Origin: Hyphomicrobiales bacterium | GTDB taxonomy: Bacteria; Pseudomonadota; Alphaproteobacteria; Rhizobiales; Xanthobacteraceae | Assembly (NCBI GenBank): GCA_017305535.1 | Contig: JAFKKN010000002.1 | Coordinates: 372,001-436,000 of the forward strand | DNA: 64,000 nucleotides | Reading direction: 5' to 3' | Shown: positions 30,521 to 41,138 of the stretch, in pieces | Layout of the letters: each line of letters opens with the position of its first letter | Numbering within the stretch: position 1 is the first letter of the stretch | Translations under genes and position numbers: made by a program | The notes under the pieces: model-generated | What the model saw: the letters and a program-made list of their open reading frames with translations, nothing else | Told to the model about the DNA's origin: nothing | Databases searched by the model: none

Positions 30521-30922
30521 TCATGAGACCACCGCGCGGTTGGTCATCGTCTGCGCGACGGCGATCACGATCGGCAGCAGCAATTCGGGCACGAGGTAAC
30601 CGAGCCAGAGCGCGGGCGGCTCCGGAACGCCGACCTTGCTGATAGACAGCAAGCGGCCGCAGCCGGCGATGAACACACTCACGGCGATCAGAAAAACCAG
30701 CGTATCCTGCTGCCGGATCGTGAGCGCCGCCCAGAAGCAGATCAACCCGCAGCCGAAATAGATGCCGGCCATGAAGCGGTGGACGTTGTCGAGTCGGGGC
30801 GCGGTATCGGGCTGGCCCAGCACCATCTGCAAGGTGCCGCCCATCACCGCGATCGCCGAGAGCAGGAACAGGCAAACCTGCACAACACGCTGGCTCGGCA
30901 GCATGGGAGCAACGGCATCCAT
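30521..30922 (-). CDS. DUF4345-like four-helix membrane protein
   Basis: 133 aa from ATG 30922, preceded by AAAGG on the minus strand. It contains about four membrane helices (VVQVCLFLLSAIAVMGGTLQ, FMAGIYFGCGLICFWAALTI, TLVFLIAVSVFIAGCGRLLS, LVPELLLPIVIAVAQTM). The pattern fits DUF4345, of unknown function. The open frame continues upstream to 31192, but that part is the frameshifted moeB remnant and is not counted. Confidence 0.75.
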   Translation of the reverse strand: MDAVAPMLPSQRVVQVCLFLLSAIAVMGGTLQMVLGQPDTAPRLDNVHRFMAGIYFGCGLICFWAALTIRQQDTLVFLIAVSVFIAGCGRLLSISKVGVPEPPALWLGYLVPELLLPIVIAVAQTMTNRAVVS

Positions 30923-31086
30923 CGCAGCACCTTTCTGGCATGGCGCCCATGCGCCGTATATTCCAGCGTGATCTGCCTCGACGGACTTCGCAATGAAAAT
31001 CGGTTCGGCCACGCAAAATGATGGTCGCTGCGTTCGCGTTGTGAATGACCAATGGACAAATGCCGCCCGCTGGAGACGCTCTTCGG

Positions 31087-31194
31087 CTAGCGATGTGCGC
31101 TCAAGTCCCTGATCGTCGGGTTGTCGCCGTTGAGCGGATTGGCCGGAGCACGGGCGCAGCGTTTCGAAGCGCATCGCGCGGGCATCGATCATCA
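31087..31194 (-). pseudogene. Decayed duplicate of the moeB 3' end
   Basis: Bases 31111-31194 align to 33050-33138 in the intact moeB-like gene with about four mismatches outside a 5-base deletion. On the minus strand it reads IDARAMRFETLR, loses frame at the deletion, then continues in the original frame as NGDNPTIRDLSAHR and ends at its own TAG (31089-31087). No start or 5' part is present. It marks the far boundary of the 1.9-kb segment carrying the unknown gene and the TetR gene. Confidence 0.85.
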
Positions 31195-31198
31195 GGCA

Positions 31199-32269
31199 TC
31201 AGGGTACGACCGATGCTTCGTTACCGATCGTGGTAACCAGTCGGACGTCGTCGCCGCGTTTCGAACACGCCACATTGACGGTGCGTGTCGCGGCCCAGTT
31301 CGGATGCTCCGGTATCAGGCTGATCGATGAACCATCGGCATCGCTCGTCAGCTCGACACGGCCGGTGACGAGCGCCTGCGCTTTGTCGATCGAAAGAGCA
31401 AAACGCCCTGCGTTGAAGATCAAACCGAAACCACCCTCAGTCTCTCCCCCGGTTCGAAGGATCTGAGAGACCTGAAGCCCCGCAGCCGTCGCAAGAGCCG
31501 TAATCACTTCGGCGCCGTCGCCCGATCTGACGATCCGGATATGTCCTGCGGCGTCGCACTCCACGATACGATAGATCACTTTATCCGGGCCGCTCTCGAA
31601 GACCCATCCGGCTCCCACGCGAATGCGATCCGGCCTGCTATGCAACCGCATGTCGATCGTGCCCGCACGAATGACGCCCATGGCATGGAGCGCGCTATAA
31701 TATCCTTCGTGGGCGACAAACGCGCCCGCACGAATTTTCACTGGCGTTTCGTAGTCGCGGCCGTCGATCGTCACGCGGGTTTCGGGTCCCGCCAGCGTGC
31801 TGGCGCCTCGCCACATCAACGGCAGGCTGCTGTCGGGAGAATGCCGTCCGGGATCGGAGAGACCTCCCCGCTCGGCGCTGGGCTGAGCTAGCGTCACGAG
31901 ATCGAGCACGATGGATTCCCCCGCATGCGAGACGAACGCGAGCCGCGCATGCTGTTTACCGCCTTCCGTCTTGTTTCGAAAAGCGATGGCGCGGAAGCAG
32001 GTCTGACGATGCACCCCGTGCGCTTCGGCCAGAAGCGCGTCATCGTTCACATGATCGATCTGGGTCTGATCGTGACGCGTCAGGATCGCACGAATGGAAA
32101 AGTCATCGCCGCGCTTCCGGATCATGGCCTCCACCGCCTCATAGTCCGGATGTCCTTCGAAAAAAGCCATCACATGGAAATCGTCGCGACGAAACCGCAG
32201 GATGAATGGCTGCACGATATCCGGCGGCAAACAGAGGCCGGTGGGACTGTGATGTCGTTCAAGTGACAT
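31199..32269 (-). CDS. Protein of unknown function, paired with a divergent TetR regulator
   Basis: I do not recognise this family. About 356 residues from ATG 32269 (GGAGAGGA upstream on the minus strand); an ATG at 32302 lies inside the operator. No signal peptide and no convincing membrane helix. Visible features are a charged N-terminal third (FEGHPDYEAVEAMIRKRGDD), a central DGRDYETPVKIRAGAFVAHE segment, and a Val/Thr-rich C-terminal half that looks all-beta. The divergent TetR gene and its tandem-box operator suggest that a small molecule induces it. Codon use looks less extreme in GC than its neighbours, and the gene sits between two copies of the moeB tail, so recent acquisition is likely. 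Confidence 0.7.
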   Translation of the reverse strand: MSLERHHSPTGLCLPPDIVQPFILRFRRDDFHVMAFFEGHPDYEAVEAMIRKRGDDFSIRAILTRHDQTQIDHVNDDALLAEAHGVHRQTCFRAIAFRNKTEGGKQHARLAFVSHAGESIVLDLVTLAQPSAERGGLSDPGRHSPDSSLPLMWRGASTLAGPETRVTIDGRDYETPVKIRAGAFVAHEGYYSALHAMGVIRAGTIDMRLHSRPDRIRVGAGWVFESGPDKVIYRIVECDAAGHIRIVRSGDGAEVITALATAAGLQVSQILRTGGETEGGFGLIFNAGRFALSIDKAQALVTGRVELTSDADGSSISLIPEHPNWAATRTVNVACSKRGDDVRLVTTIGNEASVVP

Positions 32270-32290
32270 GGAAACCGCGTCCTCTCCGCT

Positions 32291-32340
32291 TTGAGTACCC
32301 ATCGGTACTCGCTATAGAGTACCGATGGGTACCAAGTCAA
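32291..32340. promoter_or_regulatory. Divergent promoters with a 38-bp perfect inverted-repeat operator
   Basis: Arm GTACCCATCGGTACTC (32295-32310), spacer GCTATA, arm GAGTACCGATGGGTAC (32317-32332): a perfect 16-base inverted repeat. Each arm is itself nearly palindromic (GTACC...GGTAC), giving two side-by-side boxes. Plus-strand TTGAGT/TATAGA (32291-32296, 32313-32318) and minus-strand TTGACT/TATAGC (32340-32335, 32316-32311) both overlap it, so one repressor could silence both genes. Confidence 0.8.
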
Positions 32341-32342
32341 CA

Positions 32343-33026
32343 ATGAAGCCGCCTGCCAAACCGGCCCGCGACAAGCCGGCTTCGGAATTCGCTCCGGCAC
32401 GGCCCGACGTCAGGGACGAAGAAATCCTTCGGGCCGCGCTCGAGGTCTTTTCCGAAAAGGGATTCCATGGCGCGACCATGCTTGAGGTCGCGAATCGCGC
32501 GCGCGCGTCGAAGTCCACGCTGTATATGCGCTTCGAGAACAAGGAGGTCCTGTTCACGGCGCTGATCGCCTGGGGAACGCGGCAGGGAACGGAGGCGCTG
32601 GAGGCGATCGTTCGCGACGATACCCTCGATCCGTTGACGGCATTGCACCGTTACGCGGCTTGCCTGCTGCGGCTGATGATGCAGCCGGACAAGCTCGCGC
32701 TATTCCGGATCGCCCTCGGCGAAGGCGACCGCCTGCCGGAACTCGGAAAGATTTTCAGCCGCTTCACGCGCGATCACGGCGTCAAGCTGGGCCATGTGCT
32801 CGCCACGCGTCTCGTGCGGGAAGGTCTCATCGAGATCGATAATCCCGACGATTACGGACACAGTTTCATGGGGCTTCTGCAGGGCGAACTTTACCTGGCG
32901 ACCCTGCTCGGCACTATCCCCCGGCCGAGCGATAAGGCCATCGAACACCACGCCCGCCGCGCCATGGCGCGCCTCATCCGTGCATTCGCTCCCATCCGAA
33001 AATCGTCAAGAGCCCGTCAAAGCTGA
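32343..33026 (+). CDS. TetR-family repressor
   Basis: About 227 residues. A short Pro/Lys-rich leader is followed by a typical TetR HTH (EILRAALEVFSEKGFHGATM, then VANRARASKSTLYMRFENKEVLF) and a helical C-terminal domain with WGTRQGTEALEAIV and LLQGELYLATLLG. ATG 32343 lies just outside the operator; ATG 32325 lies inside it and would start at or next to the predicted transcription start. Its last 10 bases overlap the convergent moeB-like gene. Probable autorepressor and repressor of the unknown gene at 31199-32269. Confidence 0.85.
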   Translation: MKPPAKPARDKPASEFAPARPDVRDEEILRAALEVFSEKGFHGATMLEVANRARASKSTLYMRFENKEVLFTALIAWGTRQGTEALEAIVRDDTLDPLTALHRYAACLLRLMMQPDKLALFRIALGEGDRLPELGKIFSRFTRDHGVKLGHVLATRLVREGLIEIDNPDDYGHSFMGLLQGELYLATLLGTIPRPSDKAIEHHARRAMARLIRAFAPIRKSSRARQS

Positions 33027-33826
33027 CCGGGGTGCCCGCTTAAATCGCGGATCGTCGGATTGTCGCCATTGAGCGGATTGGCCGGATCGCGCGCGTAGCG
33101 CAGCGTCTCGAAGCGCATCGCGCGGGCGTCGATCATCAACAGGCGGCCGACCAGCCCCTCACCGAAGCCGACGATCTCGCGGATCACTTCCAGCGCCATC
33201 AGCGAGCCGAGCGTCCCCGCCAGCGCGCCCATCACGCCGGCCTCGGCGCAGGCCGGTACCGTGCCGGGCGGCGGCGGTTCGGGAAACAGGCAGCGATAGG
33301 TCGGATTGAGCTTGCCGTCGGCATTGGTTTCGTGCGCGCGGATCGTGGTCAGCGACGCATCGAACACGCCGAGCGCGCCGGTGATGAGCGGCTTCTTGGC
33401 GAGGTGACACGCATCGGCCACCAGATAGCGCGTGGCGAAATTGTCCGAGCCGTCGGCGACGATGTCGTAGTCCGCGAGCAAATCCATCGCGTTCGACGCA
33501 TCGAGCCGCATGGGATGCGCGCGAAACGCCACATGCGGATTAAGCGCGGCGATGCTGGACGCCGCACTGTCGACCTTGCGGTGGCCTACATCCGGCGTGG
33601 TGTGGATGATCTGGCGTTGCAGGTTGGACAGCGTCACCACGTCGTCATCGACGACGCCCAGGGTGCCGACGCCGGCGGCGGCGAGATACATCAGCACCGG
33701 CGCGCCGAGCCCGCCGGCGCCGATCGACAGCACCCGCGCCGCCTTGAGTTTCGTCTGGCCGGGGCCGCCGACCTCGCGCATCACAATGTGACGGGCATAG
33801 CGTTCGAGTTCTTCGGGGGAGAGCAT
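33017..33826 (-). CDS. MoeB/ThiF/HesA-family adenylyltransferase, zinc-less variant
   Basis: E1-like enzyme that adenylates the C-terminal Gly of a MoaD or ThiS sulfur carrier. The nucleotide site GAGGLGAPVLMYLAAAG, the GVVDDDVVTLSNLQRQIIH motif, DGSDNFATRYLVADAC and the catalytic Cys in ACAEAGVMG are present. The two CxxC pairs that bind zinc in E. coli MoeB are not: PTYRC has one cysteine, and the C-terminal pair is NPLNG. 269 aa. Its last 89 bases are duplicated, decayed, at 31111-31194. The pathway (molybdopterin or thiamine) is not settled by context. Confidence 0.85.
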   Translation of the reverse strand: MLSPEELERYARHIVMREVGGPGQTKLKAARVLSIGAGGLGAPVLMYLAAAGVGTLGVVDDDVVTLSNLQRQIIHTTPDVGHRKVDSAASSIAALNPHVAFRAHPMRLDASNAMDLLADYDIVADGSDNFATRYLVADACHLAKKPLITGALGVFDASLTTIRAHETNADGKLNPTYRCLFPEPPPPGTVPACAEAGVMGALAGTLGSLMALEVIREIVGFGEGLVGRLLMIDARAMRFETLRYARDPANPLNGDNPTIRDLSGHPGQL

Positions 33827-39902: not shown

Positions 39903-39940
39903 ACACGAAAATCGTCGTCCCTGCGCAGGCAGGGACGACG
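39903..39940. repeat. Family C arm, left member of a direct pair
   Basis: 38 bases beginning ACACGAAAATCGTCGTCCCT; matches 41101-41138 at 36 of 38 positions in the same orientation. The two copies flank the DUF4339 gene. Confidence 0.75.
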
Positions 39941-41100: not shown

Positions 41101-41138
41101 ACACGAAAATCGTCGTCCCTGCCTAGGCAGGGACGACG
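41101..41138. repeat. Family C arm, right member of a direct pair
   Basis: Same 38-base unit as 39903-39940, differing at two central positions (CTAGGC for GCAGGC). Confidence 0.75.

Follow-up and report, generated by a model that had tools for sequence, protein, structure and literature searches.

Gene arrangement

The window, which is the whole 64,000-nucleotide stretch of Hyphomicrobiales DNA that was analysed, contains a gene for a TetR-family repressor, a divergently oriented gene called P0002, and a perfect inverted repeat between them. The repressor gene is on the plus strand (32325-33026) and codes for 233 residues if translation begins at the preferred ATG; an alternative in-frame ATG is found at 32343. 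P0002 is on the minus strand (31199-32269). The repeat occupies positions 32295-32332.

The repressor carries two Pfam domains. TetR_N (PF00440, residues 34-80) scores 56.8 bits against a cut-off of 24, which assigns the protein to the TetR family, and TetR_C_7 (PF14246, residues 106-221) scores 56.9 bits against a cut-off of 22, which assigns it to the AefR-like subfamily. The protein is thus similar to the AefR-like regulators, as both domains exceed their cut-offs. By sequence, the closest relatives in the Protein Data Bank are the TetR-type regulators 3bhq and 6g87. On plasmids, 480 records match the protein, all of them at less than 60% identity.

The product of P0002 has 356 residues and is predicted to be an all-β protein. 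It has no match in Pfam or NCBIfam. A protein search of 61 genomes found it in two, its own and G034, and a profile of the family matched 4 of the 391 genomes of the same taxonomic family, 4 of the 386 genomes of the class and 1 of the 101 genomes of the ortholog's genus, with the own or source genome counted in. The matches in G737 (E of 9.4e-4, with internal stops) and G075 (E of 3.8e-4) are weak. There were zero matches in the plasmids or phages searched, and the profiles of P0002 and TetR found no relative in viral contigs. As far as sequence searches can tell, P0002 is a rare family scattered across several bacterial lineages.

An AlphaFold model of P0002, calculated with four sequences, has a mean pLDDT of 84.5. 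Foldseek found no match to this model in the Protein Data Bank at E <= 0.001. VIA-align superimposed residues 23-202 onto acetoacetate-decarboxylase-like barrels with a Z-score of up to 10.8, and gave Z-scores of about 8 to 9 with the chains of AttH, a pericyclase and a 25-phosphosteroid lyase; best Z-scores of 7 to 8 are usual when no clear relative exists. The likeness of the model to acetoacetate-decarboxylase/AttH-like barrels suggests only a common fold and makes no functional claim. The matches of the P0002 family profile to PDB sequences were weak and were dismissed.

A scan of genome contigs for P0002 found three loci in total. One of them, in a Phenylobacterium record (L036), has an identical divergent arrangement of a TetR gene and P0002. 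The identity between the window and this locus is 60% for the repressor and 48% for P0002, and the Phenylobacterium repressor also contains TetR_C_7 (59.6 bits). Elsewhere, P0002 relatives are accompanied by other regulators: a divergent LysR gene in L037 and a PadR gene in L077, the latter immediately upstream and in the same orientation. Using phmmer on reading frames of at least 120 residues, a TetR gene was found to be absent from L037, L077, L078, L079 and L080; L079 and L080 carry little weight here because phmmer missed the P0002 relative in the former and the latter record has only 3769 bases. The scan took in these five loci, leaving aside L038 and what had matched in G737 and G075.

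The inverted repeat

The repeat is 38 bp long. Its left arm (32295-32310, GTACCCATCGGTACTC) and its right arm (32317-32332, GAGTACCGATGGGTAC) have 16 nucleotides each, are 100% complementary, and are held 6 nucleotides apart by the spacer GCTATA. Direct comparison of the arms thus bore out the repeat described in the first-pass annotation. No other perfect inverted repeat with arms of at least 16 nucleotides and a spacer of up to 20 exists in the window. In the chance control, 100 order-1 Markov windows, the mean number of repeats per window was 0.00 when the arms had 16 nucleotides and 0.02 when they had 14. The second longest perfect repeat of the window with a spacer of up to 20 is at 41111-41138 and has 14-nucleotide arms (CGTCGTCCCTGCCT) and no spacer; a version of it with 12-nucleotide arms that begin with the same letters is positioned at 39913-39940.

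The arms were also said to be near-palindromic themselves, creating two adjacent boxes, and GTACC-N4-GGTAC is indeed present in each arm with zero mismatches. When one mismatch is allowed, this motif has 3 matches in the window compared to 0.34 expected. The two candidate operator boxes, to which no strand is assigned, have their centers 24 bp apart. Box 1 (32293-32310) reads GAGTACC-CATC-GGTACTC and consists of perfect 7-bp half-sites, extending 2 bp past the reported left arm, to position 32293. Box 2 (32317-32332) reads GAGTACC-GATG-GGTAC and holds the ATG at 32325. Both boxes have counterparts in Phenylobacterium, where they are 25 bp apart. The core made of the two boxes and the promoter-like hexamers has 42 of 54 columns identical between the two loci, and most box letters are kept, as are TTTGAGT, ATAGAG and GTCAAC.

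A repeat of this size might be an RNA hairpin, a terminator or the end of a recombining element instead of a protein-binding operator. Any transcript that spans the whole site could fold into a 16-bp perfect stem, and the two genes have the look of an acquired segment, next to which the 3' end of moeB is repeated. However, the terminator scan lists nothing at the repeat, and the terminator/hairpin reading was rejected for this reason. The predicted TetR and P0002 transcripts would both start within the repeat, so that the whole stem would be on neither of them. As for recombination, the repeat is located between the two genes, away from the edge of the acquired segment, and the only sizeable genes recognised between the moeB copies are TetR and P0002, neither being an integrase by Pfam. 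A role of this kind is scarcely credible, and the repeat is better described as a pair of putative protein-binding sites.

Promoter-like elements and the divergent spacing

Two pairs of promoter-like hexamers can be read by eye across the repeat. The putative TetR promoter, on the plus strand, has a -35-like TTGAGT at 32291-32296, which is kept in Phenylobacterium within TTTGAGT, and a -10-like TATAGA at 32313-32318, 16 nucleotides past the -35; the Phenylobacterium counterpart of the latter is CATAGA with a spacing of 17. The putative divergent promoter, on the minus strand, has a -35-like TTGACT at 32335-32340, kept in Phenylobacterium as GTCAAC, and a -10-like TATAGC at 32311-32316, 18 nucleotides past the -35, for which Phenylobacterium has TATGTC at equal spacing. 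If the repressor starts at 32325, the divergent -35-like element is within its codons 4-6.

Both -10-like hexamers overlap the six-base spacer GCTATA. The earlier claim that the repeat covers both promoters and that their -10 elements share the spacer therefore holds insofar as both hexamers are there and have counterparts in Phenylobacterium. The hexamers are imperfect, however, both pairs being weak matches to the consensus, and a strict sigma-70 scan of positions 31000-33100 lists neither the TetR nor the divergent promoter. Provided that the two -10 elements are used, their common spacer means that RNA polymerase would occupy just one promoter at a time. The predicted transcription start of the TetR gene falls in the center of box 2, close to 32325, and that of P0002 near the center of box 1, around 32304.

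The gap between the divergent start codons is 55 bp in the window and 52 bp in Phenylobacterium, in both cases under 200 bp. According to PMC3511530, TetR-family regulators closer than 200 bp to a divergent neighbor mostly repress it; all five of the tested regulators within this distance did so. The same source describes eight characterised regulators in its Discussion with distances from 65 to 190 bp and surveys 250 divergent pairs spanning 0 to 1123 bp. A distance of 55 bp is below that of all eight regulators but within the range of the survey, and is thus short but not exceptional.

The start codon of the repressor

The first-pass annotation gave the repressor gene as 32343-33026 and pointed out a possible start codon within an arm of the repeat. 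The Phenylobacterium locus instead favors 32325-33026, with the start codon within box 2. The ATG at 32325-32327 does fall in the right arm, and Phenylobacterium has an ATG at the matching place. There, the TetR frame opens after a TGA, four codons (CAT AGA GTA CCC) precede the ATG, and the next ATG, GTG or TTG is 35 codons past the ATG of box 2, inside the helix-turn-helix region. With no other ATG, GTG or TTG between the stop codon and the helix-turn-helix region, the Phenylobacterium start must be in box 2, barring a rare start codon. Because its position is the same as that of 32325 in the window, 32343 is less likely to be the start. The Phenylobacterium locus is the best evidence for a start codon inside the arm, and the operator comparison rests on this one ortholog.

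It is conceivable that the double operator and the repression are as proposed here, but that translation begins at ATG 32343 behind a leader of about 18 nucleotides, so that nothing would be leaderless. The in-frame ATG is available, and the repressor of the window has 14 residues near its N terminus that lack a counterpart in Phenylobacterium. The protein alignment has a gap after residue 4, and the N-termini past the first residues are consequently not firmly aligned. The DNA of the two loci, on the other hand, aligns gap-free through ATG-RGTACC-NNG-TCAAC. Furthermore, 32343 is not preceded by a Shine-Dalgarno sequence, the best match being AAG, and Phenylobacterium has no in-frame ATG, GTG or TTG at the corresponding position, its sole start being in box 2. 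Initiation at 32343 is thus rather unlikely.

The mRNA of the repressor probably begins with ATG 32325, which would make it leaderless. The plus-strand -10-like hexamer is separated from 32325 by 6 nucleotides, a spacing that suits a transcript start at that A. In both genomes, a GAG is found 5 nucleotides upstream of this ATG, inside the operator, and would be a weak Shine-Dalgarno sequence if transcription started further upstream. This idea is unremarkable, as alphaproteobacteria have a fair number of leaderless mRNAs: PMC4117421 and PMC3616915 report 375 in C. crescentus and 171 in S. meliloti. The former source also describes C. crescentus leaderless mRNAs as being translated as well as other mRNAs, so that weak translation of the repressor is not a necessary consequence.

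Other TetR genes were used as a control. Of 30 loci, 8 had a candidate start within a loosely defined palindrome, but only 2, the window and Phenylobacterium, had an ATG so placed, which is weak evidence because the palindrome test is loose and the loci without an ATG candidate were pooled with the rest. The 30 loci are what remained of 34 after the removal of L027, L030 and L032, which had no tblastn hit, and L017, which had no start candidate.

Distribution of the box motif

Without mismatches, the bare pattern GTACC-N4-GGTAC is found at 3 places in the whole genome (the pair plus one more) compared to 6 for the backward pattern, and it is therefore not rare genome-wide. The uniqueness of the locus rests on the longer pattern AGTACC-N4-RGTAC, which was picked after both the window and the Phenylobacterium locus had been seen. 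All its matches, 3 of 3 in G000 and 3 of 3 in G798, correspond to the two boxes of the TetR/P0002 locus, on one or both strands. Read backwards, the pattern has 2 matches in G000 and 1 in G798. When 385 genomes of the class were searched with the operator pattern, it turned up in 1, the window's own; the pattern was strict and would overlook related operators with altered letters. As AGTACC-N4-RGTAC occurs nowhere else in either genome, the switch seems to be dedicated to the TetR/P0002 pair, although a further site with altered letters may exist.

The same data bear on whether a different regulator, be it a TetR paralog or some other protein that dimerizes, binds the boxes while the adjacent TetR works elsewhere. 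Candidates exist, since the genome has 13 protein matches to the repressor, itself included. Nevertheless, the motif is confined to one locus in two genomes and is beside the TetR gene in both, and in the genome of the ortholog the next-best paralog lags far behind, scoring 84.8 bits versus 408 for the ortholog. Binding by another regulator is highly improbable, and the adjacent repressor is taken as the protein that recognizes the boxes.

Origin of the gene pair

The 3' end of a moeB-like (ThiF) gene occurs twice, on either side of the P0002-TetR pair: a displaced copy at 31087-31194 and, at 33032-33138, the one belonging to the intact gene. The two copies are identical to each other in 90 of 110 aligned columns. 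The displaced copy is nearest to the congener G004 (95/108), whereas the intact copy is nearest to the congeners G003 (104/115) and G002 (102/113). Two of the six congeners for which the region was fetched, G003 and G004, have the moeB-like gene directly after an AMP-ligase gene, which leaves no space for the pair; the stretch around the moeB-like gene in the other four has no AMP-ligase match. None of the seven congeners searched has a match to P0002. The G+C content is 0.59-0.62 across the pair and about 0.65 around it. This sequence pattern suggests that the pair arrived by horizontal transfer on a segment which, if the event ran in this direction, put a 3' end of its own in place of that of the gene into which it inserted.

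Several other features were observed in the flanks. The 3' ends of the TetR gene and of the moeB-like gene, which converge, share 10 bp (33017-33026), and the protein encoded by moeB ends in other residues than its counterpart in G003. A reading frame at 30521-31192, situated between the AMP-ligase gene and the duplicated end of moeB, matches DUF4345 over residues 104-213 of 223; as the match begins only at residue 104, the true start of this frame is probably further in. In the congener G005, a stretch similar to this frame adjoins moeB in the opposite orientation.

Comparison with known systems

The locus is similar to tetR/tetA of Tn10 and Tn1721, which, according to PMC3511530 and PMC3037858, consists of a divergent repressor and target with two palindromic operators over the promoters. 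PMC3017554 cites tetR of Tn1721 as a leaderless gene, which is a further likeness to the repressor mRNA proposed here. Unlike tetR/tetA, however, the repressor of the window is not TetR proper, as it reaches 23 bits with NCBIfam NF010319, for which the cut-off is 265, and its target is a protein without a Pfam match and not an efflux pump. The sequence of the boxes also differs from that of tetO.

The acuR gene of R. sphaeroides also belongs to the TetR family, and PMC3017554 describes its start codon as being at the 5' end of the mRNA and its operator as covering the promoter. The repressor of the window is not AcuR, however, since its score with NCBIfam NF051457 is 30.4 bits compared to a cut-off of 247. 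Furthermore, acuR heads the operon under its control and is not divergent from it, and where the window has two boxes, acuR has a single inverted repeat, TAATAGAC-n6-GTCTATTA (PMC3017554).

Proposed regulation of the locus

Very probably, the repeat serves as a double operator in a TetR-type switch that is local and autoregulated and sits between divergent genes. The original proposal of two TetR operator boxes is supported at the sequence level by the TetR_N and TetR_C_7 domains, by a two-box symmetry that exceeds chance, by divergent genes with a start-codon gap of 55 bp, by conservation in Phenylobacterium and by a motif that is specific to the locus.

Dimers of the repressor (32325-33026) bound to box 1 and box 2 would cover both overlapping promoters. 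Without a ligand, the repressor gene and P0002 would both be poorly transcribed. A small-molecule ligand, bound by the AefR-like C-terminal domain, would free the repressor from the operator and P0002 would be induced. The repressor transcript would begin at or beside the first base of ATG 32325 and, being leaderless, would likely be weakly translated; as argued for acuR in PMC3017554, a leaderless mRNA would suit a low repressor level. The P0002 mRNA, in comparison, would carry a leader with a Shine-Dalgarno-like sequence, which is AGGA, 10 nucleotides before the ATG, in the window and GAGGT in Phenylobacterium. The induction of P0002 would thus come with self-limited synthesis of the repressor.

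Codons 1-6 of the TetR gene might serve three purposes: the leaderless start and N terminus of the protein, the right half of box 2, and the target promoter's -35 element. Selection would then have kept this overlap in both Phenylobacterium and the lineage of the window, making the coding start, the repressor's control of itself and the target promoter inseparable. The case for and against this triple use is evenly balanced.

The switch is ordinary and familiar in kind, although its layout is elegant. If the proposed reading is right, the locus would be a compact natural repressor switch with a testable start codon built into its operator. The ligand of the repressor would then likely be linked to the role of P0002, and would provide a handle on this rare protein.
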